NCBI RefSeq assembly: GCF_018613935.1
Contig: NZ_JAGGPF010000002.1
Location: forward strand, 62,001 to 126,000
Length of the DNA stretch: 64,000 nt
Direction: 5' to 3'
Origin: Agromyces sp. ISL-38
GTDB taxonomy: Bacteria > Actinomycetota > Actinomycetes > Actinomycetales > Microbacteriaceae
Made by a program: the position numbers and the translations under genes. The notes beneath the pieces were generated by a model that was given only the letters and a program-made list of their open reading frames with translations, was not told the origin of the DNA and did not search any database. Below, piece by piece: positions 28,472 through 48,267 of the stretch; the stretch's first letter is position 1, and each line of letters opens with the position of its first letter.

Positions 28472-28480
28472 GGAGCCACG

Positions 28481-29281: not shown

Positions 29282-29282
29282 C

Positions 29283-32223: not shown

Positions 32224-33129
32224 TCACACGAGCCCGCTGTACTGGTGCCACGCGGGGCCGGCGTCGGGCGCGTCGTCGCGGATGACGCTCGCCTGGATGA
32301 GCCCGTAGGGGCGGTCGTCGGCGTGGAACACCTCGTTGTCGTTCTCAACGCCGAATCGCGAGAGGTCGTAGAGGAAGTGGTGCCTGTTGGGGGCCGAGAG
32401 GCGCACCTCGGCGATGATGTCGTAGGCCTCGAGCACGGCCTTGCCCATCTCGAAGAGGGTCTGCTGCAGGGCGAGCGAGTGCACGATGGCGAACTGCTTC
32501 ACGAGGATCGCCTTGACGCCCGCATACAGCTCGTTCCAGTCGGCCTCCGTCGTCGTGAACCGCCACTTCGCGACGAGCGACGTGGCCATGACCCGGTCGG
32601 TCGTGGGTTGGAGCACCGTGTACTCGTCCTCGTAGAAGCCGTGGAACTCCGAGCCCGTCGACTTCAGGATCACGAGGTCCTTGAGTCCGCCCGTGATCCA
32701 CGTGCGCTGCTCGCCACCGGTGCCCTCGACCGTGACGGAGGCCGTGCGCACCTCCTGCCCCTTTCGCACCCACGTGTGGTCGTGCTCGGCGCCGTCGACG
32801 AGCACGCGCTCCCACGCGTACTCCTCGATCTCGATGCGCGCGGCGTCGACCGGCGGCACGTCGTCGACGAAATGGCGGGCGAGCTCGAGCCCGTACTCCT
32901 CGATCGAGACGAGTCCCTTCTCCTTCGCGAAGGAGTAGGCGGTCTGCTTCTGCGTGTCGGTCGGCAGCACGTTCGACTGGTCGCCGGTGAGATGAGCCGC
33001 CGCGAAGTCGCCGCGCAGCGCGGTCGAGACGTTCACGTCGTGGATCTCGTGGCGGGGCGAGTCACGGTAGATCCGCACGACACGGTTCTCCGCCTTGCCG
33101 TACTGGTGGTCTCCGAGGACGATGGCCAT
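32224..33129 (-). CDS. pucL: Urate oxidase (factor-independent urate hydroxylase)
   Basis: 301 aa, normal for uricase. It is a tandem T-fold enzyme that oxidises urate to 5-hydroxyisourate with O2, without cofactor. Recognisable segments are VLGDHQYGKAENRVVRI, the catalytic-site LPTDTQKQTAYSFAKEKG, GGLKDLVILKSTGSEFHGF and NRHHFLYDLSRFG. There is no OHCU decarboxylase fusion; that enzyme is separate at 40057-40572. AGGAG precedes the ATG. It lies between the xanthine dehydrogenase large subunit and the 8-oxoguanine deaminase, both sources of urate. Confidence 0.95.
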   Translation of the reverse strand: MAIVLGDHQYGKAENRVVRIYRDSPRHEIHDVNVSTALRGDFAAAHLTGDQSNVLPTDTQKQTAYSFAKEKGLVSIEEYGLELARHFVDDVPPVDAARIEIEEYAWERVLVDGAEHDHTWVRKGQEVRTASVTVEGTGGEQRTWITGGLKDLVILKSTGSEFHGFYEDEYTVLQPTTDRVMATSLVAKWRFTTTEADWNELYAGVKAILVKQFAIVHSLALQQTLFEMGKAVLEAYDIIAEVRLSAPNRHHFLYDLSRFGVENDNEVFHADDRPYGLIQASVIRDDAPDAGPAWHQYSGLV

Positions 33130-33194: not shown

Positions 33195-36056
33195 TCACGC
33201 GGTCGAGATCGGTGGGGCGGATGCCGCGGCGTCGCGTGCGAGGCGCCACACGCGGTCGCGGGAGAACGGGGTCTCGTACGGACGAGCGCCGATGGCGCGC
33301 CGGATCGCGTTGCCGAGCGCGGCGGCGACGGGGTTGTACGGACTCTCGCTCATGGACTTCGCTCCGAACGGCCCGAGGTCGTCGCTCGTCTCGGCGAAGA
33401 GCACCTCGGTGCCGGGGATGTCGGCCATCTGCGGCACCCGGTACATGCGGAACACGGGCGTCTGGATGCGGCCCTCCTCGACCATGACCTCTTCGTAGAG
33501 TGCACCGCCGATCGCGTGCGCAACACCGCCCTCCACCTGGCCGCGGCACTGCGCGGGGTTCATGACGGTTCCGGCATCCGCGCTCTGCACCGACTGCAGG
33601 ATCCGCACGACGCCGGTGCGCACGTCGACCGCCACGCGGAACGCCTGCACGTTGAAGGCGAGCGACCGGTGCTCGCCGTACTCCGCGGCCGAGGCGGCGA
33701 TCCCGTCGCCCACGCGGTGCTCGGCCGGAGTCGCGGCGATGAGCTCGGCGAAGCCGACGAGCCGCCCGCCTGCGCTGACGCCGTCGGGGCCGAGCGTGCA
33801 GGTCGCGGCATCCGTGGCAGTGAGGGTCGCCGCAGTGCCCAGGAGGATGTCGCGCAACGCGAGCGCCGCGGCGTGCAGCGCCTTGCCGGCGACCGTCGTG
33901 CCGGCCGAGGCGAATGCCCCGGTGTCGTAGTCGGCCCCGTCGGTGTCGGAGTTGCGCAACTGGACCCGGTCGATGGACGTGCCGAGATCGGTCGCGACGA
34001 TCTGGGCGTGCACGGTCGTGGTGCCGTTGCCGAACTCGCTCGTGCCGACGCCGAGCACGTAGCCGCCGTCGGGGAGCAGGGTGACGGTGGTCTTCGAGAC
34101 ATGCCCGCGCGGCGCCATCGTGGCGATCATCGACGCCGCCATGCCCTCGCCGATGCGCCAGTGCTCGCCCGCGGGCGCCTCGACGCCGTTGCCGCGCAGG
34201 AGGGCCTGCTCGGCGAGGTCGAGGCACTGGTCGAGGCCGTAGCTGCCCGGGACGATGTCGTGCTCGGGTTCGCCGAAGAACCCGAGCGGCACTTCGCCCT
34301 CTCGGATCGCGTTGATGCGGCGCAGCTCGAACGGGTCGATGCCGAGTTCGATCGCGAGCTCGTCCATCGCGGACTCGACCGCGAGGATGACCTGGCCGAG
34401 CCCGTAGCCGCGGAACGCGCCCGACGGGGTGTTGTTCGTGTAGACGGCCTCGGCGTCGATGCGCTTCACGGGGCTCGTGTAGAGGCTGATCGATTCGGCG
34501 CATCCGTGGAACATCACGCCGCGCGAGTGGTTGCCGTAGGCGCCGGTATCGCTCAGCACGTCGACGCGCATCGCCGCGAGCCGGCCGTCGCTGGAGGCGC
34601 CGAGCGCTACGGCCACTCGCATCGGGTGCCGCACCGACGTGCGCACGAACTCGTCGGTACGACTGAGCTCGTAGACGGCGGGCTTGCCGGTGCGCAGCAC
34701 GGTGAGCGCGACGAGGTCCTCGGTGAACAGCTCCTGCTTGCCGCCGAAGCCGCCGCCGACCCGGGCCGTGAAGACGCGCACGCGATCCTGCGGCAGGTCG
34801 AGCAGCCGGCACAGCTCGTCGCGGGTGAGGAACGGCACTTGCGAACTCGTGCGCACCACGAGCCGGCCGTCGTCGTCGAGCCATCCGATCGACCCGTGCG
34901 TCTCGAGCTGGGCATGGCTGAGGCGCTGCGTCTGCCAGGTGCCCGCGACGGTGACATCGGATGCCGCGAGCGCCTCGTCGAGGTCGCCGCCGTACCCGGC
35001 GTGCAGCGCCGCGACGACATTGCGGCCGGCCTCGTCGACGCGGTCTGCGGGCGTGCGATCGGGGTGGAGGAGGGGCGCACCGGGAGTGCGGGCCGCTTCG
35101 GGGTCGAAGACCGCGGGCAGCACCTCGTAGTCGACGACGATGCGCCGGCACGCCTCTTCGGCCGCTGCCGCGGTGATCGCGGCGACGGCCGCCACGCGCT
35201 GCCCCACGAAGCGCACGACATCGTCGAGCACGCGGGTGTCGTCGGGATCGTCGGTGCGGTGCTCGTGCCGACCGGTCGAGAAGCGCATCGCCGGCACGTC
35301 GTGGTGAGTGAGCACGAGTTCGACGCCGTCGAGGGCGAGTGCCGCGCTCGTGTCGATCGAGCGGATGCGCGCGTGCGCATGCGGCGAGCCGAGCACCTTG
35401 ATGTGCAGGGCGCCGGGCGTCGCCGTGTCGAACGTGAACGGCTCGGTGCCGGTGACCACGCGCCGTGCCGCGGGCGGTGCGACGGAGCGGCCGATGAGCG
35501 ACGCCGGGCGTTCGTCGGCACCGGTCGAGCCGAGGTTGCGGGCGCCGCGTGGGTGCGCGGCATCCGTCTGCCCGCTCTCGGTCGTCGGAGCCGGGCCGGG
35601 CTCGCTCGACGCCGTCTCGCCTGCGGCCGCGACACCCGCCGTGATCGACTCGCGGATGCTGCGATACCCCGTGCAACGGCACAGGCTGCCTTTCATGAGC
35701 CGTGGCAGATCGCCCAGTTGCTCCTCGTGGAGCGTCGACGCGGTGACGATCATGCCGGCCGTGCAGTACCCGCACTGGAAGCCGAAGTGGTCGACGAACG
35801 CCGCTTGCATGGGATGGAGCTCGTCGGGCGTGCCGAGCCCCGCGACCGTCGTGACGGAGTGCCCCTCGATGCGCTGTGCCGGGTAGATGCACGAGTGCAC
35901 GGGCACGCCGTCGACGAGCACCGAGCACGCGCCGCAATCGCCGGCGTCGCAGCCCTTCTTCACCTCGAGGTGCTCGTGATCGCGCAGGAAAGTGCGAAGG
36001 CACTGGCCGGCGCGCGGCTCGCCGTCGCGCTCGCTGCCGTTGACGGCGAACCTCAT
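33195..36056 (-). CDS. Xanthine dehydrogenase, fused 2Fe-2S and molybdopterin subunit
   Basis: 953 aa in one open frame. Residues 1-145 are the 2Fe-2S subunit: plant-type cluster cysteines C36, C41, C44 and C56, then second cluster C95, C98, C126 and C128. A Pro/Ser/Glu-rich linker (about 146-185) joins it to the molybdenum subunit (about 186-953) with GGGFGGK, FRGYGLGQ and the catalytic glutamate in GAKSMSESP. FAD is carried by the separate next-upstream gene, which overlaps it (ATGA). The reaction is hypoxanthine or xanthine to urate. This layout, iron-sulphur plus molybdenum without FAD, recalls Desulfovibrio aldehyde oxidoreductase. Confidence 0.93.
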   Translation of the reverse strand: MRFAVNGSERDGEPRAGQCLRTFLRDHEHLEVKKGCDAGDCGACSVLVDGVPVHSCIYPAQRIEGHSVTTVAGLGTPDELHPMQAAFVDHFGFQCGYCTAGMIVTASTLHEEQLGDLPRLMKGSLCRCTGYRSIRESITAGVAAAGETASSEPGPAPTTESGQTDAAHPRGARNLGSTGADERPASLIGRSVAPPAARRVVTGTEPFTFDTATPGALHIKVLGSPHAHARIRSIDTSAALALDGVELVLTHHDVPAMRFSTGRHEHRTDDPDDTRVLDDVVRFVGQRVAAVAAITAAAAEEACRRIVVDYEVLPAVFDPEAARTPGAPLLHPDRTPADRVDEAGRNVVAALHAGYGGDLDEALAASDVTVAGTWQTQRLSHAQLETHGSIGWLDDDGRLVVRTSSQVPFLTRDELCRLLDLPQDRVRVFTARVGGGFGGKQELFTEDLVALTVLRTGKPAVYELSRTDEFVRTSVRHPMRVAVALGASSDGRLAAMRVDVLSDTGAYGNHSRGVMFHGCAESISLYTSPVKRIDAEAVYTNNTPSGAFRGYGLGQVILAVESAMDELAIELGIDPFELRRINAIREGEVPLGFFGEPEHDIVPGSYGLDQCLDLAEQALLRGNGVEAPAGEHWRIGEGMAASMIATMAPRGHVSKTTVTLLPDGGYVLGVGTSEFGNGTTTVHAQIVATDLGTSIDRVQLRNSDTDGADYDTGAFASAGTTVAGKALHAAALALRDILLGTAATLTATDAATCTLGPDGVSAGGRLVGFAELIAATPAEHRVGDGIAASAAEYGEHRSLAFNVQAFRVAVDVRTGVVRILQSVQSADAGTVMNPAQCRGQVEGGVAHAIGGALYEEVMVEEGRIQTPVFRMYRVPQMADIPGTEVLFAETSDDLGPFGAKSMSESPYNPVAAALGNAIRRAIGARPYETPFSRDRVWRLARDAAASAPPISTA

Positions 36057-36856
36057 GCGGCGAGCTCCTGCCGGATCTCCTCGAGGAGCACGCAGCTCAC
36101 CTCGCGCCGCCAGTCTTCGGTGCCGAGCGGGTCGGTGTAGTAGCCGTCGGCGGATGCCACGTCGGAACGCAGCGTCGCGGCATCCGGCAGCTCGGGGTAC
36201 CGCAGCACCGTGGGACGCCAGGTCGCCGCCGTGATGCCGAACACCGCGCAGCCGTCTTCGTCGACCCGGCCGGTGAGCACGGCGCCCGAGCGGCCGAGCT
36301 CGGCGAGCGCGATCTTGCGGTATCCGGTGCGGGCCCGCAGCGCGTGGGCCGGGATCTCGACGGCGCGCAGCACCTCGCCGGGCGCGAGCGAGTTGGTGCC
36401 GTTGCCGGTCACGAGACGCTCGACCGGCATCCGGTACTCGCCGCCGTCGGGCGTCCACACGAGCGCGACGCCGTCGAGGGCGGCCGCGAGCGACACCATC
36501 GACCCGGCGGCGAACGATCGGCAGACGTTTCCACCCACGGTGGCGACGTTCCAGACCTTGAACGAGGCGAGGAGCGCGGTGGCGCACTGGAAGAACAACG
36601 GATGCGCGGTCCAGCCCTCGTGCTCGGGAATCGCGGCGAGCTCGGCGATCGTGCACGTCGCGGCGATGCGGAGCCCGTCGTCGCTCACCTCGAGGGCGGG
36701 CCAGCCCATGGTCGAGAGGTCGACGAGTCCGGTGACCTCGAGCTGCGGCTCGGAGAACATCCAGGTGCCGCCGGCCACGAACCGTTCGGTGGGGTCGAGC
36801 ACGAGGTCGCCCCGCGAGCGCGCGTAGCGATAGCCCGTGATCGTGTTGAGGTCCAT
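36053..36856 (-). CDS. Xanthine dehydrogenase FAD-binding subunit
   Basis: 267 aa from the ATG at 36856 with AAGGGA upstream. A vanillyl-alcohol-oxidase-type FAD domain with VAGGTWMFSEPQL (FAD pyrophosphate loop), ATVGGNVCRSFAAGSMVSL, and the C-terminal CO-dehydrogenase flavoprotein domain with YRKIALAELGRSGAVLTGRV. It carries electrons from the iron-sulphur clusters to NAD+ or O2. Its stop overlaps the start of the fused subunit, so the two are made together. It is first gene of the xdh-uricase-deaminase operon. Confidence 0.92.
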   Translation of the reverse strand: MDLNTITGYRYARSRGDLVLDPTERFVAGGTWMFSEPQLEVTGLVDLSTMGWPALEVSDDGLRIAATCTIAELAAIPEHEGWTAHPLFFQCATALLASFKVWNVATVGGNVCRSFAAGSMVSLAAALDGVALVWTPDGGEYRMPVERLVTGNGTNSLAPGEVLRAVEIPAHALRARTGYRKIALAELGRSGAVLTGRVDEDGCAVFGITAATWRPTVLRYPELPDAATLRSDVASADGYYTDPLGTEDWRREVSCVLLEEIRQELAA

Positions 36857-36883
36857 GGCGATTCCCTTCGGCACCAGTGAATC

Positions 36884-36909
36884 GAAACGACATGACGGGA
36901 ATGTTTCCC
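36884..36909. promoter_or_regulatory. Candidate operator upstream of the xdh operon
   Basis: GGGAATGTTTCCC (36897-36909) is a palindrome with 5-bp arms, and GAAAC (36884-36888) is inverted relative to GTTTC (36903-36907). It lies 28-53 bases before the FAD-subunit start. The regulator is unknown; the XRE-cupin and RpiR proteins of this cluster are candidates. Confidence 0.35.
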
Positions 36910-36974
36910 AGATGAACAATCTCGACTCACGCGCGACACGTCGATCGCCGGGCCGGCGATCTCGCGCGGCGGGA

Positions 36975-38144
36975 CTACGACACTCCGACCACCGCCTCCC
37001 GATCGGCGGTCGCGTGGATCGGTCCGATCGTCGCGCTGAGCGGTCGCGCATCGCGCCCCGACCGCACGGCGATCACCTCGGCGAGGATCGACACGGCGGT
37101 CTCTTCGGGCGTCACCGCGCCGAGGTCGAGACCGATCGGAGACCTGAGGCGCGCGAGCTCCGCCGCGGTGGCGCCGGCCGCGCGAAGCAGTTCGACGCGC
37201 TCCTCGTGCGTGCGCCGGGAGCCGAGCGCGCCGACGTAGGCGACCGGCAGCGAGAGTGCGAGACGCAGCAGTGGAACCTCGGTGCGCGCGTCGTGGCTCA
37301 GCACGCAGACGACCGTGCGCTCGTCGACATCGAGACGGGCGAGGTAGGCGACCGGCCGCTGCGCGACCACCTCGTGCGCGGCCGGGAACCGCTCAGCCGT
37401 CGCGAACGCCGGCCGGTGGTCGCACACGCTCACCCGGTAGCCGAGGAGCGCCGCCGCCGAGGAGAGCGCCTCGGCGAAGGCGACGGCCCCGAAGATGACC
37501 ATGCGCGGCGGCGTGAGCCGGCTCTCGCAGAAGAACACGAGGTCGTCGCCGTCGCACTCGAGGCGCACGAGACCCGATCGCCCGGAGCGGACGTTCCGAT
37601 CGAGTTCGGCGTCGATTCGCGCGGCGGAGATGCCGTGAACACCCGCCGCGGCGAGTTCGCCGTCGTCGAGCCCGGGGAGGCGGCCGGACGAGCCGGCGTC
37701 TCGGGGGTCATTGCCGTTCCGGCCCGGAACGACGACGCGACCGAGCAGGGCGGCCGGGCCGGCCACGAGCGTGGCGATCCCGCTCGACTCGCCCTCGAGC
37801 ACCCGGTCGAACGGCTCACGATCGAGGAGGCCGGGCGCGGCCGGCTGCACGAACACGTCGATCTCGCCGCCGCAACCGAGCCCGACCGCGAAGGCGCTCT
37901 CGTCGTCGATGCCGAATCGGCCGTGCTCGACACCCTCGCCGTCGAGCACGCGTTCGCAGAGCTCGTAGACGGCGCCTTCGACGCAGCCGCCCGACACGCT
38001 CCCGGTGATCCGGCCGTCGGGATCGACGATCATCGACGCACCCGGGTCACGCGGCGCCGAGCCCGTGACGGCCGTCACCGTCGCGAGCGCGAACCGCTCG
38101 CCGCGCGCGAGTCGCGCGCTGATCTCCGCCGACAGCTCCAGCAC
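36975..38144 (-). CDS. xdhC: XdhC/CoxI-family molybdenum cofactor insertion protein
   Basis: 389 aa from a GTG at 38144, 4 bases after GGAGG. The N-terminal XdhC_CoxI domain contains RFALATVTAVTGSAPRDPGA and the cysteine segment SVSGGCVEGAVYE; the C-terminal Rossmann half has RMVIFGAVAFAEALSSAAAL. XdhC binds and sulphurates the molybdenum cofactor and hands it to xanthine dehydrogenase. It sits just upstream of the dehydrogenase genes on the same strand with a 118-base gap, and divergent from allantoinase. The usual GxGxxG of the Rossmann loop is weakened here to FGAVAF, which is unusual. Confidence 0.88.
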   Translation of the reverse strand: MLELSAEISARLARGERFALATVTAVTGSAPRDPGASMIVDPDGRITGSVSGGCVEGAVYELCERVLDGEGVEHGRFGIDDESAFAVGLGCGGEIDVFVQPAAPGLLDREPFDRVLEGESSGIATLVAGPAALLGRVVVPGRNGNDPRDAGSSGRLPGLDDGELAAAGVHGISAARIDAELDRNVRSGRSGLVRLECDGDDLVFFCESRLTPPRMVIFGAVAFAEALSSAAALLGYRVSVCDHRPAFATAERFPAAHEVVAQRPVAYLARLDVDERTVVCVLSHDARTEVPLLRLALSLPVAYVGALGSRRTHEERVELLRAAGATAAELARLRSPIGLDLGAVTPEETAVSILAEVIAVRSGRDARPLSATIGPIHATADREAVVGVS

Positions 38145-38255: not shown

Positions 38256-39596
38256 ATGACGGCAATCGACGATCCATACGACCTCGTCGTGCACGCCGAG
38301 TCGGCGTTCATCGACGGGGCGTTCCGCGCCGCGACGATCGCGGTCCGCGACGGCCTGATCGCCGCGATCGAGCCACTCGGGCCCGCCGGGGTCGAGGCAC
38401 GGTCGGAAGTGACCCTCGCTCCCGGTGAGCGCCTGATCCCGGGTCTCGTCGACACCCACGTGCACGTCAACGAGCCCGGACGCACCGAGTGGGAGGGGTT
38501 CGCGAGCGCGACGCGCGCCGCCGCCGCGGGCGGCGTCACGACGATCGTCGACATGCCGCTGAACAGCATCCCGCCCACGATCGATCCCGCCGCCCTCGCG
38601 ATCAAGCGTGCCTCGGCGGCACCGCAAGCCGTCGTCGACGTCGGATTCTGGGGCGGCGCGGTGCCGGGCAACCTCGGCACCCTGCGTGAGTTGCACGACG
38701 CCGGCGTGTTCGGCTTCAAGTGCTTCCTGGCACCGTCGGGCGTCGACGAGTTCCCCCACCTCGATCACGCAGGACTGCTCGCGGCGCTCCGCGAGCTCGC
38801 CGAGTTCGACGGACTGCTCATCGTGCACGCTGAAGATCCGTCGGTGCTCACTGCGCACGAGAACGACGGCGGGCCGAGCTATCCGCGATTCGTCGACTCG
38901 CGCCCGCCCGAGGCGGAGCTCGTGGCCATCCGGGGCGTCATCGACGGCATCCGCGAAACGGGCGGCCGGGCGCACATCCTGCACCTCTCCTCGGCGGCGG
39001 CGCTCCCGCTCATCGCCGAGGCGAAGGCGGAGGGCCTCCGGCTCACCGCCGAGACGTGCCCGCACTACCTCACGCTCGACGCCGAGCACATCCCCGACGG
39101 CGCCACCGAGTTCAAGTGCTGCCCGCCGATCCGTGACGAGGGCAACCGCGATCGGCTCTGGCACGGCCTCCTCGATGGCGTGATCGACCTGATCGTCTCC
39201 GACCACTCCCCCGCGACCGCCGAGCTGAAGCTCGGCTTCGACGGCGACTTCGGCCGGGCCTGGGGCGGCATCGCCGGGCTGCAGCTCGGCCTCGCGAATG
39301 TGTGGACCGAGGCGGCGCGCCGCGACATCGGCCTCGAAAGCGTGCTCGGCTGGATGGCGCAAGCGCCGGCAGAGTTCGCCGGGCTCTCGGGCAAGGGCCG
39401 CATCGCGCTCGGCGCCGACGCCGACATCGCGGCATTCGCCCCCGACACCCGATTCACCGTCGTGCCCTCGGCGCTCGCCCACAAGAACCCGGTCTCCGCG
39501 TTCGCGGGCGCGCGGCTGCGGGGCGTCGTCACGAGCACGTGGCTTCGCGGCGTCCCCATCAGTGGTGAGCCTCGCGGGCGGCTGCTCGCCCGGTGA
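38256..39596 (+). CDS. allB: Allantoinase
   Basis: 446 aa cyclic amidohydrolase that opens allantoin to allantoate. Metal ligands are visible: DTHVHVNEPG, the bridging lysine in FGFKCFLAPSG, IVHAED, HILHLSSA and SDHSP. GRTEWEGFASATRAAAAGG and DMPLNSIPPT are typical of AllB rather than dihydroorotase or hydantoinase. GGAGG lies 5 bases before the ATG. It faces XdhC across a 111-base divergent promoter region and converges with the HIU hydrolase gene. Confidence 0.95.
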   Translation: MTAIDDPYDLVVHAESAFIDGAFRAATIAVRDGLIAAIEPLGPAGVEARSEVTLAPGERLIPGLVDTHVHVNEPGRTEWEGFASATRAAAAGGVTTIVDMPLNSIPPTIDPAALAIKRASAAPQAVVDVGFWGGAVPGNLGTLRELHDAGVFGFKCFLAPSGVDEFPHLDHAGLLAALRELAEFDGLLIVHAEDPSVLTAHENDGGPSYPRFVDSRPPEAELVAIRGVIDGIRETGGRAHILHLSSAAALPLIAEAKAEGLRLTAETCPHYLTLDAEHIPDGATEFKCCPPIRDEGNRDRLWHGLLDGVIDLIVSDHSPATAELKLGFDGDFGRAWGGIAGLQLGLANVWTEAARRDIGLESVLGWMAQAPAEFAGLSGKGRIALGADADIAAFAPDTRFTVVPSALAHKNPVSAFAGARLRGVVTSTWLRGVPISGEPRGRLLAR

Positions 39597-39715: not shown

Positions 39716-40060
39716 TCAGCTGCCGCGATACGTCGAGTAGGCGAACGGGCTGAGCAGCAACGGCACGTGGTAGTGCTCGGATGCCACGGCGATCTCGAAC
39801 ACGATCGAGACCTCGGGGTAGAACGTCGGTCGGTCGCCGAAGTACGCGGCCGTGTCGAAGACGACGCGGTAGACGCCCTCGGGCAACTCCGCCGGGCCGA
39901 GCTCGGAGACACGGCCGTCGGCATCGGTGACGGCGGCGGCGATCGGCGCCCAGGCGGCACCGACATCGGTACGGGCTTCGAGTCGCACGTCGACGCCCTC
40001 GGCCGGCCGACCGGCCGCGGCGTCGAGCACGTGAGTCGTGACGTGGCTGCGGCCCGTCAT
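39716..40060 (-). CDS. uraH: 5-Hydroxyisourate hydrolase (transthyretin-like)
   Basis: 114 aa, the normal size. It hydrolyses 5-hydroxyisourate, the uricase product, to OHCU. Family landmarks: THVLDAAAGRPAEGVDVRLE with the catalytic His, an Arg in DVRLEARTD, SEHYHVPLLLSPFAYSTYRGS with the catalytic His and the diagnostic C-terminal Tyr-Arg-Gly-Ser. The start overlaps the OHCU decarboxylase stop (ATGA), so the two consecutive enzymes are translationally coupled. Confidence 0.95.
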   Translation of the reverse strand: MTGRSHVTTHVLDAAAGRPAEGVDVRLEARTDVGAAWAPIAAAVTDADGRVSELGPAELPEGVYRVVFDTAAYFGDRPTFYPEVSIVFEIAVASEHYHVPLLLSPFAYSTYRGS

Positions 40061-40572
40061 GCCGCCACCCCGATCGGCCACGCGGCATCCGCGTACATGC
40101 GTTCGAGGCGAAGCAGCGTGATCTCGCGCAGCTGCTCGCCCACGACGGCGAGCTCGGCGTCGTCGACGAGCCGCATGCGCCTCGAGAGCTCGGCGAGGAT
40201 CTCGGCCCGAGAGCGACCCGCGGCGCGGATGAGGAAGACCCGGCCGAAGCGCTCCTCGTACGCGCGATTGCCGGCGGCGATCGCTACTGCGAGCTCGGGA
40301 TCCTCGGCGTCGGCCGACGACTGCTCGGAGCGGGAGAACCGCTCGGCAGTGCCGTTGCCGGCGGGCTTCTCGCCGATGCGCGGGTGGCTCGCGAGGGCCT
40401 CGTCGATCTCGGCCGGCGAGAGCGGTGAGGCGGCGTCGGATGCCGCGGCGAGCAGTGCATCGAGGGAGTCGAACGGTGCGGCATCCGCCACCTCGTCGAC
40501 CCAGCGAGCGACGTGCAGGCACGCTCGCAGCTCGTCTCGGAATCGTTCTCGGGCGTCGCTCGACACGTTCAC
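40057..40572 (-). CDS. uraD: 2-Oxo-4-hydroxy-4-carboxy-5-ureidoimidazoline (OHCU) decarboxylase
   Basis: 171 aa from a GTG at 40572, 7 bases after GGAGG. The all-helical UraD family is recognised by DALLAAASDAASPLSPAEID, the catalytic His in ALASHPRIGEKPAG, and NRAYEERFGRVFLIRAAGRS. It makes S-allantoin. In Bacillus this domain is fused to uricase; here it is separate and paired with uraH. Divergent from mocA, with 46 bases between their starts. Confidence 0.94.
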   Translation of the reverse strand: MNVSSDARERFRDELRACLHVARWVDEVADAAPFDSLDALLAAASDAASPLSPAEIDEALASHPRIGEKPAGNGTAERFSRSEQSSADAEDPELAVAIAAGNRAYEERFGRVFLIRAAGRSRAEILAELSRRMRLVDDAELAVVGEQLREITLLRLERMYADAAWPIGVAA

Positions 40573-40618
40573 GGTGACTCCTCCCGCGCCGCACGCGCGG
40601 CTCGGGTTAACTGTAGCC

Positions 40619-41188
40619 ATGACCGCCTCGCTGCTCGGAGTGCTCCTCGCCGCGGGTGCGGGCACGCGCATGGGGCGCCCGAAGGCGCTCGTGCGTGATG
40701 CATCGGGGGTGCCGTGGGTCGTCGACGGCTTCCGGATGCTTCGTGCGGCCGGGTGCGACCAGGTGGTCGTCGTGCTCGGCGCGGAGGCCGACGCCGCTCG
40801 CGCCCTCGTTCCCGCCGGGGCCGACGTGGTCGTGGCCGCGGACTGGGAGCGGGGACTGTCCGCTTCACTCCGAGCCGGGCTCGCGTTCGCCGCGGAAACC
40901 GACGCCGAGGCGGTGCTCGTGAGCCTCGTCGACTTGGCCGGGCTCCCCCCGGCGGTCGGCCGGCGGGTCATCGACCAGGCCGGCACCGGCGCCGAGCGCC
41001 GCGGGGCGCTCACCCGCGCCGTCTTCGTCGGTCGCCCGGGGCATCCGGTGCTCATCGGCCGCGACCACTGGACGGCCGTGGCGACCGAGGTCTCGGGCGA
41101 CACGGGCGCGGGCGCGTACCTCGCCCGGCACGATGCCGTGCGCGTCGAGTGCGCCGACCTCAGCGCGGGGCTCGACCGGGACCGTTGA
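40619..41188 (+). CDS. MocA-like molybdenum cofactor nucleotidyltransferase
   Basis: 189 aa, NTP_transf_3 family. The signature LLGVLLAAGAGTRMGRPKALV is the MobA/MocA nucleotide loop, followed by VVVVLGAEADAARALV, DWERGLSASLRAGLAFA and VSLVDLAGLPPAVGRRVI. MocA adds CMP to molybdopterin to form the dinucleotide cofactor of xanthine dehydrogenase-type enzymes. Together with XdhC it would supply the cofactor for the dehydrogenase of this cluster. No Shine-Dalgarno sequence is seen; TTAACT lies 6 bases before the ATG, hinting at a leaderless start. Confidence 0.85.
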   Translation: MTASLLGVLLAAGAGTRMGRPKALVRDASGVPWVVDGFRMLRAAGCDQVVVVLGAEADAARALVPAGADVVVAADWERGLSASLRAGLAFAAETDAEAVLVSLVDLAGLPPAVGRRVIDQAGTGAERRGALTRAVFVGRPGHPVLIGRDHWTAVATEVSGDTGAGAYLARHDAVRVECADLSAGLDRDR

Positions 41189-41310
41189 CGGGATCGAGCG
41201 CGTCGCCCCCGCCTTCCCGTCCGCCGGCGTCGTCGCCGACCCCGTCGAATCCGTAGCCCGCCCGCGCTTCGCGTCGTCGACGATGATCGCCTCACGCAGC
41301 GACCGCTCCA

Positions 41311-42189
41311 TCACACGCCCTCGATCTCGGCGAGGCCGCGGTAGGTGGCGTCGATGCCGGCGATGCGGGAACGACCGCGCCGGATGTCGGCGCCGAGCAC
41401 GGCGCTCGCGACGAGGCTCACGAGGCTCATCGCGCTCGCATAGCTGTCGAACGCCGCCGGGCTCTCGAGCGGGCACTCGATGGCGAGGTCGGCGCGCGCG
41501 GCGAGGGCACGCCCGCTCGGATCGGTGATGAGGATGCACCGTGCCCCGGTCGCCACGACCGCGTCGAGGATCTCGGCGAACCGCGCCGGGCGGCGCCGGA
41601 ACCCGACGAGCACCACAACGTCGCCCTCGCCGAGGTCGGCGAGGTCTTCACCGAGGGACTGCCCCGGTTGCGGGGCGATCCGCACGCGGCCCCGGCACTG
41701 CACGAGTTGTTCACGCAGGTGCAGGGCGACGGGATAGCTGTTGCGATAGCCGACGACGAGCACCTCGCGTGCCTCGACGAGGGCGGTGACGACGGCGTGC
41801 AGGGTTCCGCCGGCGAGCGCGTCGAGCAAGCGGGAGAGGTTCTCCCGCTCCGATGCGAGCAGTGCGGCGACGCCCTCGGGCGAGGCGGCGGGTGCGCCGG
41901 CTGCGCCGAGCGGCGTTCCGGCGCTCCGCCGGGCCAGCACGTGCTCGCGCACCTCTTGCGAGTTCGCGAACCCGAGCCGTCGATACAGGCGGCTCACGGT
42001 CGCCTTCGAGACGCCGCTCATGGCGGCCAGTTCGCTCGAGTTGTACACGGCGAGCTCGCTCACGTGATCGAGGATGAACTCGGCGATGCGCTGCTCCTGC
42101 GGGGTGAGCTGCGGCATCGCCGCCTCGATCCGGTGCTCGATGCCGCCGACTGCGGCGGGCACTGCAGCCGGCGCCGGCGGGGTGGTCAT
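41311..42189 (-). CDS. MurR/RpiR family transcriptional regulator
   Basis: 292 aa. The N-terminal HTH_6 domain reads LTPQEQRIAEFILDHVSELA and SGVSKATVSRLYRRLGFANS; the C-terminal SIS domain (about 125-270) reads EVLVVGYRNSYPVALHLREQ and would bind a small ligand. RpiR-type regulators commonly control allantoin and purine use in actinobacteria and other bacteria. The start overlaps the allC stop (ATGA). It is thus the last gene of the amdA-amidase-pucG-allC-rpiR block and a good candidate for binding the palindrome at 44707-44726. Confidence 0.9.
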   Translation of the reverse strand: MTTPPAPAAVPAAVGGIEHRIEAAMPQLTPQEQRIAEFILDHVSELAVYNSSELAAMSGVSKATVSRLYRRLGFANSQEVREHVLARRSAGTPLGAAGAPAASPEGVAALLASERENLSRLLDALAGGTLHAVVTALVEAREVLVVGYRNSYPVALHLREQLVQCRGRVRIAPQPGQSLGEDLADLGEGDVVVLVGFRRRPARFAEILDAVVATGARCILITDPSGRALAARADLAIECPLESPAAFDSYASAMSLVSLVASAVLGADIRRGRSRIAGIDATYRGLAEIEGV

Positions 42190-43475
42190 CGCGCGCCCGC
42201 GAGTCGTTCGGGCTCGGCCCGCACGCGATCGGCCACCGCGAGCACCGCGGCTTCGAACGCGTCGAGGGCGAGCGCGACATCCTGCAGCGTCACCGTCTCG
42301 TCGGGATGGTGGCTGATGCCGCCGTTGCCGCAGCGCAGGAACAGCATCGCGATGTCGGTGACCGCGCTCACGGCCATGCCGTCGTGCCCGGCGCGACTCC
42401 AGAGGGTCATGGGCTCCGCGTCGCCGGTTTGACGGATGCCGCGCTCCACCGCATCGCGGAGCCACTCCGCGCACGGCGTGGAGTCGGCGCGGTAGATCTC
42501 CCGTGACTCGAAGCGCAGCCCACGGCGCTCCGCGATCTCGCGCGCGCGGCGCCGGATCTCGGCGAGCGCGCGATCGCGATCGTCGTCGAACTCGGCACGG
42601 AGGTCGAGGCTGAAGTCGACCCGGCCCGGAATCACGTTGACGCCGCCCGGGAAGGCCTGCAGGCGGCCGACGGTCGCGATCACGCCGGATTCGCGGCCGA
42701 TCTCCTCGATGCCGACGACGAGTTCGCTCGCGCCGACGAGTGCGTCGCGGCGCCGATCGTACGGTGTGCCGCCGGCGTGGCCGGCGACGCCGGTCATCGT
42801 GAACTCGAATCGGCGGGCCCCCGCGATCGAGGAGACCACGGCGAGCGCCCGGTCGGCGTCTTCAAGGGAGGGGCCCTGCTCGATGTGCACCTCGAGGTAG
42901 CCGACGAGCGACTCGGGGCGTCGTGCGGCGCTCCGGATGCGCGACGGGTCGAGGCCGAAGTCGATGAGCGCCTCGCGGAGGGTGAGTCCGTCGCGGTCGC
43001 GCGACTCCCACCACCCGGGATCGAACTCGCCGGCAAGCGCCCGGCTGCCGAGCAGCGCGTTGCCGAAGCGCGTGCCCTCCTCGTCGGTGAAGCCCACGAC
43101 CTCGAGCGCGAACGGCAACCGTTCGCCGCGCCGGGCGATGCGCGCCGCGACCTCGATCGCGAGCAGCACGCCGAGCATGCCGTCGTACCTGCCCGCGTCA
43201 CGCACGGTGTCGAGGTGCGAGCCGAGCAGGAGCGCCGGCAGGTCGGGATCGGCGCCCTCGAGCCGGGCGCACTGGTTGCCGCCGGCATCCTGCCATGCGG
43301 TGAGTCCGGCCTCCTCCATCCACCCCGCCGCGAGGTCGTTCGCCTTGCGGTGCTCTGGCGAGAGATGCACGCGCTCGAGCAGGTCGGGGCTCGATGAGAT
43401 CGCGGCGAGCTCGTCGCAGCGGTCGAGCACTCGCTCCGCGATCGTGAGCGAGTCGGGAGCGAGCTGCGGGGTCAC
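42186..43475 (-). CDS. allC: Allantoate amidohydrolase (M20 family)
   Basis: 429 aa, GTG start. A two-metal M20 hydrolase with GSHLDTVRDAGRYDGMLGV, FTDEEGTRFGNALLGSRALA, LEVHIEQGPSLED, HAGGTPYDRRRDAL and SRAGHDGMAVS, then GISHHPDETV. It removes ammonia and CO2 from allantoate to give S-ureidoglycine. N-carbamoyl-amino-acid hydrolases share this fold, but the position between pucG and the RpiR gene supports AllC. Its start overlaps the pucG stop and its stop overlaps the rpiR start. Confidence 0.92.
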   Translation of the reverse strand: MTPQLAPDSLTIAERVLDRCDELAAISSSPDLLERVHLSPEHRKANDLAAGWMEEAGLTAWQDAGGNQCARLEGADPDLPALLLGSHLDTVRDAGRYDGMLGVLLAIEVAARIARRGERLPFALEVVGFTDEEGTRFGNALLGSRALAGEFDPGWWESRDRDGLTLREALIDFGLDPSRIRSAARRPESLVGYLEVHIEQGPSLEDADRALAVVSSIAGARRFEFTMTGVAGHAGGTPYDRRRDALVGASELVVGIEEIGRESGVIATVGRLQAFPGGVNVIPGRVDFSLDLRAEFDDDRDRALAEIRRRAREIAERRGLRFESREIYRADSTPCAEWLRDAVERGIRQTGDAEPMTLWSRAGHDGMAVSAVTDIAMLFLRCGNGGISHHPDETVTLQDVALALDAFEAAVLAVADRVRAEPERLAGAR

Positions 43476-44659
43476 GCCACCGACTCCGCGTAGACGTCAC
43501 GCGCAGCGCCGACACCGGCGCCCGCGGTGAGACGGTGTCCTTCGGCGCGGAGCACGTGCTCGAGCGCGGCGAGCGTCGTGAGCACCGCATCCTTGCGGGC
43601 GTTGTAGCCCATGGTGCCGATGCGCCAGATCTTTCCGTGCAGCGGGCCGAACGACGTGCCGATCTCGATCGCGAAGTCCTCGAGCAGCGCCGTGCGCACC
43701 CGGTCGCCGTCGACGCCGTCGGGGATGAAGACCCCGACGACGTTGTTCATGCGGTGGGCGCGATCGCCGAAGATCCGAAGGCCGAGCGCTGCGACCCCCT
43801 CCGCCATCGCCGCGCCGTGGAGCCGGTGACGTTCGATCGCGGCATCCATGCCCTCGTCGACGAGAAGTCGCGCGCACTCCCGCGCGCCGTAGAGCATCGA
43901 GGTCGCCTCGGTGTGGTGGTTGAGCCGCTTCTCGCCCCAATAGTCGAGGATCATCGCGAGGTCGAAGTAGTTCGAGCGGATCGGGTCGTCGCGCACGGCG
44001 TCGCCCTCGGCACGGATGCCGGCCTCGACGCTCTTGCGCGCCTCGATGCGCGCGACGGCCTTCGGGGAGAGGCTGATCGGCGAGCTTCCCGAGGGGCCGC
44101 CGAGGCACTTCTGCAGGCCGGCCGTCGCGGCGTCGAGGCCCCAGGCGTCCATCTCGAAGGCGTTGCCGCCGAGCGAGGCGGTGACATCCGTGTAGAAGAT
44201 CACGCCGTGGCGTTCGCAGATCTCGCCGAGCTCATCGAGCGGCTGCGCCACGGTCGTCGACGTGTCGCCGTGCACGACCGCGAGGAGCGCGGGCTTCACC
44301 TCGACGATCGCCTGCTCGATCGCCGCCGACGTGAAGACGCCGCCCCACTCGACCTCACGAGTGTGCACCTCGGCGCCGGCGCGGCTCGCGATCTCGGCGA
44401 GGAGGTGGCCGAAGCGGCCGAAGATCAGCACGAGCACACGGTCGCCGGGAGCGACGAGGGAGACGATCGCGGCCTCGATGCCCGCTCGCGAGGTGCCGTC
44501 GACGAGGAGCGTCGCCGCGTTGCCGGTGCGGAACACCCCGCGATAGAGCTCCATCGTCTCGTTCATGTACGACGTCATCGCCGGGTCGTACTGGCCGATG
44601 AGCTGGGCCGACATCGCGCGGAGCACGCGCGGGTCGGCGTTCACGGGGCCGGGACCCAT
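43472..44659 (-). CDS. pucG: (S)-Ureidoglycine-glyoxylate aminotransferase
   Basis: 395 aa from the ATG at 44659. A fold-type I PLP enzyme of the serine-glyoxylate/alanine-glyoxylate group with GPGPVNADPRVLRAM, YTDVTASLGGNAFEMDAWGL and the PLP lysine K184 in GLQKCLGGPSGSSP. PucG turns ureidoglycine and glyoxylate into oxalurate and glycine. The sequence before the ATG keeps reading as family-like protein (IIAVAPINPPPRLL) back to a Shine-Dalgarno-like AGGGAG, but has no ATG, GTG or TTG; the true start may be ATC at 44698 or 44701. Confidence 0.93.
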   Translation of the reverse strand: MGPGPVNADPRVLRAMSAQLIGQYDPAMTSYMNETMELYRGVFRTGNAATLLVDGTSRAGIEAAIVSLVAPGDRVLVLIFGRFGHLLAEIASRAGAEVHTREVEWGGVFTSAAIEQAIVEVKPALLAVVHGDTSTTVAQPLDELGEICERHGVIFYTDVTASLGGNAFEMDAWGLDAATAGLQKCLGGPSGSSPISLSPKAVARIEARKSVEAGIRAEGDAVRDDPIRSNYFDLAMILDYWGEKRLNHHTEATSMLYGARECARLLVDEGMDAAIERHRLHGAAMAEGVAALGLRIFGDRAHRMNNVVGVFIPDGVDGDRVRTALLEDFAIEIGTSFGPLHGKIWRIGTMGYNARKDAVLTTLAALEHVLRAEGHRLTAGAGVGAARDVYAESVA

Positions 44660-44706: not shown

Positions 44707-44765
44707 CCTGAATCTCGTGTTTCAGGCCACCATTCTACGCAACGCCCGTTTCAGACGTGTTTCAG
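44707..44765 (-). promoter_or_regulatory. pucG promoter with palindromic operator and repeats
   Basis: CCTGAATCTCGTGTTTCAGG (44707-44726) is an imperfect palindrome, 8 of 10 pairs. A minus-strand -10 TAGAAT lies at 44732-44737. Two further GTTTCAG units (44748-44754 and 44759-44765) are spaced 11 bases apart upstream. The palindrome covers the expected transcription start, as a repressor site would. Confidence 0.6.
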
Positions 44766-46370
44766 GTGCTGCGACCAGCCGATCGCCGCCTCGACGAGCG
44801 CGAGATCGCTGCCTCGGGGCCCCACGAAGCAGATGCCGATCGGTGCGCCATCCGCGGTGACGCCCGGCACCGACACGGCCGGCCGGCCTGTGGCACCGGC
44901 GACGGCGGTCATCCTGAGCGTCGCCGCCCGGATCGCCTCGATCTCTGCGCCGTCGGCGTCGACGGCGGGAGCCGCGGATGCCGCCGACGGCAGCACGAGC
45001 ACGGCGTCGCCGAGCGCGGCATCGAGTGCCCGGCGAGCGGCCTCGAGCCGAGCGCGGGCATCGGACGCTGCTTCGGGCGTGATCGCCGCCGCCCATTCGA
45101 ATCGGGCCGCGACATCCGCGCCCAGCGCTCCCGGATGCGCCTGGATCCACGCGCCGTGCGCCGCCCAGGCCTCCGACGCCTGCACCGTTCGGAATGCGGC
45201 GTACAGCGCGTCGAGGGCGTCGCCGCCGATCGCCGGGTCGTCGAGTTCAGAGACATCCGAGCCGCCCGTGGCGAACGCCTCGACGGCTCTCGCGAATGAG
45301 CGCGCGACCTCGGGCGTCGCCGACTCGGCGAGCGCGGCCGCCGTCACGAATCCGGTACCGACGCCCCGCTGCGCCGCCGGATCGAGGCTCGCCCGCGCCG
45401 CCGCTGCAAGGGTCTCCCCGTTGCGCGTGATCCAGCCGACCGTGTCGAAGCTCGGCGCGAGGGGCAGCACGCCCTCGGTGCTCACCGCACCATGCGTCGT
45501 GCGCAGTCCCCACAGCCCCTGGTACGAGGCCGGGATGCGGATCGAGCCGGCCGTGTCGGTCGCGAGGCCGATCGTCGCGTGCCCCATCGCGACCGCCGCC
45601 GCCGGGCCACTCGACGAGCCGCCCGAGATCGCGCCGGGCACGGCCGGGTTCGGCGGGGTGCCGTAGGCCGCGTTCCGTCCGGCGATGCTGTAGGCGAACT
45701 GGTCGGTCTGTGCGATGCCGCGAACGGATGCCCCTGCCGCCTGCAGCGCGCGCAGGCTCGCCGCCGAGCGCGGCTCGGGCCCGGCACCCTCGAGGTATAC
45801 GGGCACTCCGGCCCCGAGCGGGAACCCCTCGACCGCGAACACGTCCTTGACGGCGACCGTGACCCCGTCGAGCGGGCCCTGTGCCAACGCCGGGAGGAGG
45901 GGCTCGCCGACCACGCGCCAGACGCGCGGATCGAGTGCCCGGGGCGGAGCCGACACGTGCGCCGCCGCGATGCGCCACGCGCCGTCCTGCCGCTCCCAGA
46001 GCTGGGTGACGAGCCCTCGACCACCCGCGAGCGGCGCGGTGACCGCGGCGAGCCACGCGTGGTCGGCATCGATGGGCCGCACGTGCAGCGCCTCGATCAC
46101 GCGCTTCGGCGCTCCCCCGCGGCGGCCGCGGAACCGGGTGATCGTGTCGCGGCCGACGAGGAGCCCGCCGTCGTCGCCGCGGATGGTCGCGGCGCCCGGC
46201 GCGAAGTACCCCTCGAGCCTCGTGAGGTCATCGGACATGAGCGCGGCCTCGTACCCGAGCGCCGCCTCGACGAGACCGTCGGGCGCTTGGGCGCCGTCGG
46301 GGAGGTGCACGGGCACGCCGTCGTGCACGGGCGCGCCGTCGGCGCCGTGCTGCGGCGTCCGCTCAGCCAC
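44751..46370 (-). CDS. HpxZ/AtzH-like domain fused to an AtzE/HpxY-like amidase
   Basis: 539 aa in one frame. Residues about 30-150 are an AtzH/HpxZ-like (DUF3225, SnoaL-type) domain: VEAALGYEAALMSDDLTRLE, then YFAPGAATIRGDDGG and QLWERQDGAWRIAAAHVS. Residues about 155-539 are an amidase-signature enzyme with K175 (VAVKDVF), the cis-Ser loop ISGGSSSGP (about 249-256) and nucleophile S276 (DTAGSIRIPAS). In Klebsiella these are separate genes, hpxZ and hpxY, of the urate pathway. The small AtzG/HpxX-type subunit is not seen here. Next to pucG, oxalurate is the obvious candidate substrate (inference). Confidence 0.85.
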   Translation of the reverse strand: MAERTPQHGADGAPVHDGVPVHLPDGAQAPDGLVEAALGYEAALMSDDLTRLEGYFAPGAATIRGDDGGLLVGRDTITRFRGRRGGAPKRVIEALHVRPIDADHAWLAAVTAPLAGGRGLVTQLWERQDGAWRIAAAHVSAPPRALDPRVWRVVGEPLLPALAQGPLDGVTVAVKDVFAVEGFPLGAGVPVYLEGAGPEPRSAASLRALQAAGASVRGIAQTDQFAYSIAGRNAAYGTPPNPAVPGAISGGSSSGPAAAVAMGHATIGLATDTAGSIRIPASYQGLWGLRTTHGAVSTEGVLPLAPSFDTVGWITRNGETLAAAARASLDPAAQRGVGTGFVTAAALAESATPEVARSFARAVEAFATGGSDVSELDDPAIGGDALDALYAAFRTVQASEAWAAHGAWIQAHPGALGADVAARFEWAAAITPEAASDARARLEAARRALDAALGDAVLVLPSAASAAPAVDADGAEIEAIRAATLRMTAVAGATGRPAVSVPGVTADGAPIGICFVGPRGSDLALVEAAIGWSQHLKHV

Positions 46371-47463
46371 GCTTCACCGCCCGGAAGTCGGAGGTGCGAA
46401 TGCGAGCGTGCACGCCCTTCACGAGATCGACGACCTGCGAGATGTCGAAGTCGGTCGCCGCGCTGAGGTACGCGTAGGCGAGGTGGGGCGCCATGCCGTA
46501 GCGCGCGCCGAGGAGACCGATCGCCTGGCGCACGCAGTTCTGCATGGCGAGGTCGAGGTCGGCGTCGAGGCCCGTCGGCACGAGGTAGTCGCTCGTCTCG
46601 GCGAGCGGCCCGGCTATCTCGCCGAAGTCGCGCACCGCCGTCTCGGCCGGCACGACCTCGAACCGGATCGTGGCGCGCAGCGACGCCTCGAGCGCGGTCA
46701 GCGCGACCTCGCCGCCGCCTTGCGCGAAGTGCGGGTCGCCGACGTAGGCGAGCGCCCCGTCGACCTGCACGGGCAGGTAGAGCGAGGCGCCCTCGGTGAG
46801 GAGATTGATGTCGAGGTTGCCGCCGTGCGCGCCGGGCGGCACGGAGTGCGGCCGCTCGTCGGCATCGACCGCGACGCCCATGATGCCGAGGAACGGCGCG
46901 AGCGGGAACCGGATGCTCCGCTCCCCGCCCTCGACGAGCGGCAGGGCGCCGAACCAGGCGCCGTGCTCGTCGCGCTCGATGGGGGTGAAGACGCTGACGT
47001 TGCCCTGCCCCTGCGGGTACTCCCCCGGCAGCGCGCCGCGGCCGTGGCGATTCGAGATCACGCCGTAGGGCACGCGCGGGGTCGTGTCGACGACGGTGAG
47101 CTTCAGCAGGTCGCCGGGCCGCGCGCCGCGCACCCCGATCGGGCCGGTGACGACGTGCGGGCCGTCGGTCGCGGGGTCACGCGGATGATCGGATGCCGCG
47201 AGCGCCACGGCCTCGTCGAGCACCTGCTCGCGCTCGACACCGTGCGCCCCGAAGAACGCAGCGGGATCGCGGCCCTGGTCTTCGAGGATGCCCTCATGGC
47301 TCACCGTGTCGATGACGACCTCGTCGCCGGCGTCGACGGTGAGCACGGGCGAGTCGCCGCGCGCCGGCAGGCGGCCCCACCCGAGTGCACCCGGTTCGGC
47401 CGGGAGGTAGGTTCCCCCTTCGACGCCGGATCCGGCCTGCAGCACTCCGTGAAACCCGCCCAT
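46363..47463 (-). CDS. Acetamidase/formamidase family protein
   Basis: 366 aa of the FmdA_AmdA family, with DAGDEVVIDTVSHEGILEDQ, GVRGARPGDLLKLTVVD, the conserved PPGAHGGNLDINLLTEGASL and GDPHFAQGGGEVALTALEAS. Known members hydrolyse formamide, acetamide or related short amides. It overlaps the fused amidase by 8 bases and starts the operon that runs into pucG. In this context an oxamate- or carbamoyl-type amide from ureide breakdown is a plausible substrate, unproven. Confidence 0.88.
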   Translation of the reverse strand: MGGFHGVLQAGSGVEGGTYLPAEPGALGWGRLPARGDSPVLTVDAGDEVVIDTVSHEGILEDQGRDPAAFFGAHGVEREQVLDEAVALAASDHPRDPATDGPHVVTGPIGVRGARPGDLLKLTVVDTTPRVPYGVISNRHGRGALPGEYPQGQGNVSVFTPIERDEHGAWFGALPLVEGGERSIRFPLAPFLGIMGVAVDADERPHSVPPGAHGGNLDINLLTEGASLYLPVQVDGALAYVGDPHFAQGGGEVALTALEASLRATIRFEVVPAETAVRDFGEIAGPLAETSDYLVPTGLDADLDLAMQNCVRQAIGLLGARYGMAPHLAYAYLSAATDFDISQVVDLVKGVHARIRTSDFRAVKRG

Positions 47464-47583: not shown

Positions 47584-48267
47584 GTGATCTCGACCATGCG
47601 TCGCCATCCCGCCGGAACACACCTCGGCCTCATGCTCGCCCTCACCTTCTCGACCGGCGTCATCGACGCCGTCGGCTACCTCGGCCTCGACCGCGTGTTC
47701 ACGGGCAACATGACGGGCAACATCGTCATCCTGGGCATGGCCCTCACCGGCGCCGACGACCTGCCGATCATCGGCCCGGTGCTCGCCCTCGCGGGCTTCA
47801 TGGTCGGTGCCGCAGTCGCCGGCCGCCTGCTCCGCGACCTCGTCGCCGGGTGGAGCAGGAGCACGACCGTGGTGTTCTCCCTGGTCGCACTCGTGCTCGT
47901 CGCGGCGGGCGTCACGATGATCGTGCTCGAAGATCCCGCCGAACCGGTGCTGCTCGGCGTCACGACCGCGCTCGGCCTCGCCATGGGAGCGCAGGCGGGC
48001 GCGGCACGCCACATCGCGGTGAAGGATGTCACGACGGTCGTCGTCACCTCGACCATCACCGGCCTCGCTGCCGACTCGGTCTTCGGCTCCCGCGTCGACA
48101 AGCACCCGTGGCGGCGACGCGCCGGCGCTATCGCCCTCATCGGCGCCGGAGCCGCGGTCGGCGCGCTCGTGCTCAACGTGCACATCGCCTTCGGCATCGC
48201 ACTCTCGGCGGCCATCACGATCGTCGTGGCGGTGCTCGGCCACCTGGGCCGGCCGCGCGAGGAGTAA
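47584..48267 (+). CDS. DUF1275 (YoaK-like) membrane protein
   Basis: 227 aa, GTG start 5 bases after AAGGAG. About six hydrophobic helices. The N-terminus has the family signature FSTGVIDAVGYLGLDRVFTGNMTGNIVIL. The related YoaK family is widespread and its function is unknown; a transport role is only suggested by topology. Divergent from the amidase operon with a 120-base gap. Confidence 0.88.
   Translation: MISTMRRHPAGTHLGLMLALTFSTGVIDAVGYLGLDRVFTGNMTGNIVILGMALTGADDLPIIGPVLALAGFMVGAAVAGRLLRDLVAGWSRSTTVVFSLVALVLVAAGVTMIVLEDPAEPVLLGVTTALGLAMGAQAGAARHIAVKDVTTVVVTSTITGLAADSVFGSRVDKHPWRRRAGAIALIGAGAAVGALVLNVHIAFGIALSAAITIVVAVLGHLGRPREE

Follow-up and report, generated by a model that had tools for sequence, protein, structure and literature searches.

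The window analysed here is a stretch of 64,000 nucleotides of Agromyces sp. ISL-38 (contig NZ_JAGGPF010000002.1, positions 62,001 to 126,000), part of a source genome of 3.7 Mb in 24 contigs. Upstream of pucG, and sharing its strand, lie a gene encoding an AtzH/HpxZ-like domain fused to an amidase, and a gene for a protein of the FmdA type. PucG-type enzymes produce oxalurate in many bacteria, converting (S)-ureidoglycine and glyoxylate to oxalurate and glycine. Beyond the Klebsiella hpx set and the allFGH route of E. coli, we know of no genes assigned to the further use of oxalurate. We found that the fusion and the FmdA-type protein are a real, conserved and near-obligate partner pair of PucG. 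The features concerned are:

44751..46370, minus strand: AtzH/HpxZ-amidase fusion of 539 aa with a GTG start, the proposed oxalurate amidohydrolase and N-carboxyoxamate decarboxylase
45948..46268, minus strand: AtzH-like domain, residues 35-141 of the fusion (PF11533, 49.3 bits, cut-off 27)
44796..45881, minus strand: amidase domain, residues 164-525 of the fusion (PF01425, 180 bits, cut-off 27; PRK08310 group)
46363..47463, minus strand: FmdA/AmdA-family hydrolase of 366 aa, the proposed oxamate amidohydrolase (PF03069, 105.5 bits, cut-off 27)
43472..44659, minus strand: pucG, (S)-ureidoglycine--glyoxylate aminotransferase (PDB 3nnk, E 3.1e-173; 3isl, E 3.6e-128)

Domains and conserved residues of the two proteins

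The Pfam matches to PF11533 and PF01425, both above cut-off, share a single open frame, which bears out the reading, in a preliminary description of this DNA, of an HpxZ/AtzH-like domain and an amidase as one polypeptide of 539 residues; the N-terminal match to the DUF3225/AtzH-like family is the one that it had proposed to look for. In the AlphaFold model of the full-length fusion (pLDDT 93.9, pTM 0.87) both domains are confidently predicted, and the top Foldseek matches of this model are amidases, namely 2dc0, AtzE (6c62) and malonamidase E2. The Lys-cisSer-Ser triad of the amidase (K175, S252 and S276) is intact, as had been stated, and all three residues are invariant across 41 aligned rows including that of the window. 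The preliminary description had further called the amidase AtzE/HpxY-like, and this part has to be given up. The best NCBIfam match was PRK08310 (NF006169) at 356 bits, itself below its cut-off of 391, whereas the AtzE models NF006631 and TIGR02715 gave only 135 and 127 bits against cut-offs of 461 and 426. Six stand-alone relatives scored 375-538 bits with the PRK08310 model, five of them passing (415-538) and the sixth, L177, reaching 375. In a tree of 108 rows, built by a quick method, Klebsiella HpxY and two AtzE sequences formed a branch of their own outside the 102 PRK08310-like rows, and all 30 fusion rows fell within one 37-row clade of the latter group (SH-aLRT 99 and 96). The model scores and the separate branch exclude an AtzE/HpxY identity for the fusion amidase.

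In AtzH of Pseudomonas sp. ADP, Tyr22 and Arg46 are described as required for catalysis, and the pocket as rich in arginine (PMC6219798). The numbering of that paper equals the annotated pADP-1 frame plus 3, and the nine pocket letters of our 73-row alignment match those it gives. Residues Y40, R64, R81, R84, R90 and Q123 of the window's fusion correspond to Tyr22, Arg46, Arg63, Arg66, Arg73 and Gln108 of AtzH. Among 73 fusions including that of the window (eight of the 80 loci, the short, fragmented or weak sequences L084, L087, L092, L108, L109, L110, L112 and L114, being left out), the catalytic Tyr22 is kept in 68, with gaps in the other 5, and Arg46 in 72; of the pocket residues, Arg66 is kept in all 73, and Arg63, Arg73 and Gln108 in 72 each. 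At the positions of Phe94 and Arg96 most fusions have other residues, and Gln106 is variable. A pocket kept in part and changed in part would be expected if a carbamate were still decarboxylated while the rest of the substrate differed, and the AtzH domain would, on this analogy, decarboxylate an N-carboxy amide.

The FmdA-type gene overlaps the fusion gene by 8 bp, suggesting translational coupling, in line with the earlier notice of an acetamidase/formamidase-family gene coupled to the fusion. Its product scores above the cut-off of the FmdA/AmdA family PF03069, but it falls far below that of the formamidase equivalog NF045496 (77.4 bits against 500). A match to ObcA_N (13.5 bits, cut-off 25) was too weak, and this identity was rejected. 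The AlphaFold model of the protein has a pLDDT of 92.0, and six solved relatives were found for it. All 40 subfamily rows share R139 and H140, which the four solved relatives aligned over both sites do not keep; these two residues may serve to hold the carboxylate of oxamate.

Association with PucG and exchange with HpxW

We surveyed 396 genomes of the window's order for PucG (E <1e-150) and for the fusion or its amidase part (E about 1e-69 or better). Class V aminotransferases with no more than 41% identity were not taken as PucG, nor were the AtzH-less amidases of L157, L159, L160, L161 and L162 taken as fusions. Some matches are fragmented or confined to the amidase part (e.g. G139, G393, G032, G366 and G226), and we therefore speak of the fusion or its amidase orthologue. 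PucG was detected in 64 genomes and the fusion or its amidase orthologue in 79, with 63 genomes having both; the single PucG genome without the latter is G092, a draft of 700 contigs. As the protein searches for the fusion and PucG scored the best 3 or 4 candidates per genome, absence is less firm than presence in these counts. When the window's genome is set aside, 62 genomes have both, 1 PucG only, 16 the fusion only and 316 neither (Fisher p 5e-56, a value that overstates independence because the genomes are related and the test treats them as independent). A divergent fusion in G043 (L112; 40% identity, residues 12-525, E 1e-56) stands outside the 79 genomes and their 78 loci, and counting it would give 17 of 80 without PucG; a second copy in G130 (L114) is likewise outside the counts. 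The FmdA type (E <1e-60) was found in 62 of the 64 genomes that have PucG. Of the 16 genomes in which the fusion occurs without PucG, 12 carry it, as does 1 of 80 genomes drawn at random from the 316 with neither gene. The 62 leave out G195, whose FmdA relative (50-52%, E 3e-47) is in two pieces. In a sample of 296 genomes from the class, 34 had an AtzH-like match over the cut-off, and the amidase found in the fusions adjoins it in 28 of the 30 places fetched.

This association extends to the layout of the loci. At 55 of the 78 loci FmdA is the immediate neighbour of the fusion and has the same orientation, PucG is within the fetched stretch (about 9 kb either side of the fusion) at 56, and both hold at 49; the three genes stand together in Frigoribacterium, Microbacterium, Cryobacterium, Nocardioides, Blastococcus and Frondihabitans, among others. 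The co-occurrence, the comparison with random genomes and the linkage exclude a chance neighbourhood. The preliminary description had suggested a survey of genomes for the fusion together with pucG, and would have taken a fusion found mainly outside ureide clusters as counter-evidence; the counts show the opposite.

Six gammaproteobacterial loci (Marinomonas, Marinimicrobium, Alteromonas, Aestuariibacter, Reinekea and one Enterobacterales bin) have the gene order amidase - GGT - PucG - PucF, their amidase lacking an AtzH domain. The GGT of these loci matches, at 44-60% in two pieces, the Klebsiella stretch just upstream of hpxX, which is the place of hpxW, although no gene is annotated there in the record. 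A GGT with at least 50% identity to the Marinomonas protein is present in all six gammaproteobacterial genomes and in none of the 64 with PucG from the window's order; among the latter, G162, G318 and G205 hold weaker, near full-length relatives at 30-34%. The window's own genome has a relative at 27% only, on another contig, which agrees with the earlier remark that no HpxW is visible. Conversely, the FmdA type was found in none of the six gammaproteobacterial genomes, and no genome among the 70 compared has both the HpxW and the FmdA type. Reportedly, the oxamate activity of Klebsiella HpxW goes back to Hicks and Ealick in 2016. Given that this enzyme is described as an oxamate amidohydrolase that releases oxalate and ammonium (PMC5270733), and given the exchange, the FmdA-type protein most likely fills the role of HpxW, and the amidase that of HpxY. 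Separately from these loci, PRK08310-type amidases lie near a GGT-fold gene (35-36% to that of Marinomonas) in Cohnella and Paenibacillus (L165, L166 and L192); in L165 and L166 the amidase gene immediately precedes it, and the three stretches contain no PucG match.

A proposed route from oxalurate to oxalate

In the cyanuric acid pathway of Pseudomonas sp. ADP, AtzE is described as converting 1-carboxybiuret to 1,3-dicarboxyurea, and AtzH as converting the latter to allophanate (PMC6219798). We infer substrates, products and the order of the steps as follows, and the intermediate may pass on within one protein. PucG would supply oxalurate, along with glycine. The amidase domain would remove the terminal amide of oxalurate as NH3, leaving N-carboxyoxamate, much as AtzE acts on 1-carboxybiuret; the AtzH domain would then turn this unstable carbamate into oxamate and CO2, as AtzH does with 1,3-dicarboxyurea; and the FmdA-type protein would hydrolyse oxamate to oxalate with release of the last NH3, the task of HpxW in Klebsiella. 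What the sequences themselves show is the gene structure, the conservation of the catalytic residues, the nearly constant company of PucG and the exchange between FmdA and HpxW. We place the pair after PucG because of the co-occurrence, the linkage and the exchange, and it probably catalyses the final steps, in which uric acid gives up what is left of its nitrogen. The proposal of the preliminary description, a role for the two genes in degrading oxalurate and oxamate once PucG has acted, is strongly supported by their association (63 and 62 of 64 genomes, 49 of 78 loci, and the exchange), with the substrates remaining predictions. As a whole, the pathway from oxalurate to oxalate through the amidase domain, the AtzH domain and FmdA appears to us reasonably probable. 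A bolder form, in which the pair that ends purine breakdown in Actinobacteria is purpose-built, one chain making N-carboxyoxamate and at once decarboxylating it, an FmdA-family oxamate amidohydrolase having displaced HpxW, and the pair having also been taken up as a shared exit by the pathways of several other nitrogen heterocycles, is tentative, and we would put it slightly short of even.

Other routes were also sought. AllG (PF06545) is absent from the window's genome and present in 2 of the 64 PucG genomes, the E. coli control being detected, and the absence excludes the AllFGH route here. The AtzG-like family PF13318 gave 0 matches in the 64 PucG genomes including that of the window, a weak negative as no control genome was detected.

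Several observations weigh against the proposed pathway, and some of them favor other explanations. Two Nesterenkonia loci (L160 and L162) have AtzH-less amidases adjoining FmdA; searches found no AtzH-like gene in these two genomes or in the six gammaproteobacterial ones, and G139, the single close carrier in the window's genus, likewise gave no AtzH-like match. The AtzH domain may be dispensable, since carbamates lose CO2 spontaneously, and such unaided decarboxylation would fit the AtzH-less versions of Nesterenkonia and the gammaproteobacteria. That these versions serve in the same kind of cluster also speaks for a different reaction, in which the amidase cleaves oxalurate on its oxalyl side to oxalate and urea, with AtzH being structural and FmdA acting on another small amide; oxalate has moreover been described as a product of allantoin in E. 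coli, by a different route (PMC11326118). We consider this unlikely, because almost every aligned fusion retains the two catalytic residues of AtzH, because FmdA would be left without a role, yet is linked as strictly as the fusion, and because the FmdA/HpxW exchange indicates an oxamate step.

A Paraburkholderia operon holds a PRK08310-type amidase besides AtzE and HpxZ, and two amidases therefore need not share a job. This could point to swapped roles, with FmdA acting on oxalurate and the fusion on oxamate, the more so as both proteins are amide hydrolases whose specificity is a prediction. Against such a swap, the six gammaproteobacterial loci pair the same kind of amidase with the HpxW type, which already hydrolyses oxamate, and an AtzH domain would be sensible only next to an amidase that forms a carbamate. 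It is the least probable of the alternatives, and we regard it as very improbable.

The pathway from oxalurate to oxalate is further burdened by the 16 of 79 genomes that have the fusion or the amidase and no PucG. Many of these place the pair beside ABC transporter, HTH-cupin, PNPOx, isochorismatase, amidohydrolase and FAD_binding_4 genes, and such genes, together with beta-lactamase-fold ones, form a second recurring context (L093-L096, L098, L104, L107, L115, L116, L132 and L134), the set varying by locus. The linear Rhodococcus plasmid of L137 (fusion at 11986-13530, FmdA at 10904-11989) pairs the module with LLM-class flavin oxidoreductases; a flavin reductase and two ABC transporters adjoin it there. 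The substrate may, in view of these contexts, be wider or different, and one can picture a general module of amide salvage, serving several heterocycle pathways with the purine link as one use and a substrate other than oxalurate. This is about as unlikely, in our estimate, as cleavage on the oxalyl side: PucG lies within the fetched stretch at most loci and almost never occurs without the pair, and oxalurate or oxamate could equally be where other pathways meet. The second context may represent a pathway ending in the same intermediates. A separate observation is that three PucG-less carriers of genus g15, L048, L087 and L109 (G103, G393 and G366), keep other neighbours of the g15 clusters, with the fusion of G366 broken into pieces; the pathway may be decaying in them.

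Two further points count against the oxalurate pathway. In five more of the 80 random genomes (G275, G087, G146, G367 and G160) an FmdA relative was matched in pieces, at 48-61% identity, which shows that related FmdA proteins have uses elsewhere as well. The only search made for oxalate use, that for oxalyl-CoA decarboxylase (oxalate decarboxylase was not sought), gave a match over the cut-off in 1 of the 64 PucG genomes, and oxalate may therefore simply be excreted, with nitrogen as the gain.

The purine cluster and known systems

Our best reading of the window is that it carries an aerobic purine pathway with the oxalurate pair at its end. Besides the genes listed above, the cluster comprises:

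32224..33129, minus strand: uricase (PF01014, 206 bits)
33195..37051, minus strand: xanthine-dehydrogenase-type molybdoenzyme with molybdopterin, 2Fe-2S and FAD subunits (PF02738, PF20256, PF01799, PF00941)
38256..39596, plus strand: allantoinase-like amidohydrolase (PF01979), with relatives in many related clusters
39716..40594, minus strand: 5-hydroxyisourate hydrolase, in the C-terminal part of the open frame (PF00576, 123 bits)
40057..41295, minus strand: OHCU decarboxylase, in the C-terminal part of the open frame (PF09349, 138 bits)
41311..42474, minus strand, open frame: MurR/RpiR-type regulator (SIS and HTH_6 above cut-off)
42186..43475, minus strand: pucF-like allantoate amidohydrolase (NF006775, 534.6 bits, cut-off 479)

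The gene proper of the regulator probably starts near 42189 and not at the start of its frame. The assignment of PucG is borne out by its closest solved protein, 3nnk, which is a ureidoglycine-glyoxylate aminotransferase. The pucG frame opens at the ATG at 44659, 16 residues short of 3nnk, the match starting at residue 17 of the latter; upstream of this ATG there is no in-frame ATG, GTG or TTG before the stop at 44737, and GGGAG followed by ATC ATC is seen. The true start is probably further upstream; either it is unusual or the sequence has a wrong base. An NMT1-type binding protein and ABC permeases (26542-30152) adjoin the cluster, and similar ABC genes lie within the clusters of some relatives (e.g. 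L036 and L040). A DUF1275 gene (47629-48237, plus strand) is divergent to FmdA; a protein of the same cluster is encoded at 19 of 80 loci, in each of the 11 that could be oriented on the opposite strand, and it is possibly a transporter of the pathway. Four clusters (L061, L074, L088 and L129) have a FAD_binding_3 monooxygenase, presumably as an HpxO-type urate hydroxylase would be, and others a uricase.

The Klebsiella hpxWXYZ locus (L142) resembles that of the window in clustering a PucG-type aminotransferase, the RpiR-type regulator HpxU, HpxZ and an amidase-signature enzyme. It differs in that HpxY groups with AtzE and is accompanied by the HpxX subunit, in that HpxZ is a protein of its own, and in that the GGT-fold HpxW stands where the window's genome has FmdA. 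The atzG-atzE-atzH set of Pseudomonas sp. ADP shares the combination of an amidase with AtzH and, as proposed here, an N-carboxy intermediate, along with the six AtzH residues kept in the fusions; its amidase, however, is of another group, its proteins are separate chains, and Phe94, Arg96 and Gln106 are where it differs. The gammaproteobacterial amidase-GGT-PucG-PucF clusters have the same amidase group within a PucG cluster, but with the HpxW-type GGT in place of FmdA and with no AtzH-like match.

On plasmids of Caballeronia, Azospirillum and Roseomonas, hpxZ adjoins a gene for an amidase of the same PRK08310 type. Unlike in the window, these are separate genes, and the genes annotated in these stretches include neither PucG nor FmdA; those of Caballeronia and Azospirillum stand with a xanthine-dehydrogenase-type enzyme and, nearby, a DUF1116 gene, a family (ylbE) described as AllG of oxamic transcarbamylase (PMC12625717). 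In Catenulispora, Streptacidiphilus and Glycomyces, FmdA adjoins a stand-alone amidase, the first two loci also holding a separate HpxZ gene. These sets of separate genes look like unfused parts of the window's protein. We conclude that the pair is a variant of hpx/atz-type oxalurate degradation that departs from it in its amidase, in the fusion of two domains and in the enzyme of the last step. Searches of the open-licence literature gave no title or abstract on a fusion of AtzH with an amidase or on an oxamate hydrolase of the FmdA family.

With one gene present in 63 and the other in 62 of the 64 PucG genomes, the gap in our understanding of the fate of oxalurate becomes directly testable. 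If the proposed pathway is true, this branch of the acetamidases/formamidases would gain a physiological substrate and the FmdA family a new function, an exchange between HpxW and FmdA would have been shown, and the AtzH/HpxZ family would acquire a clear partner within a single chain.

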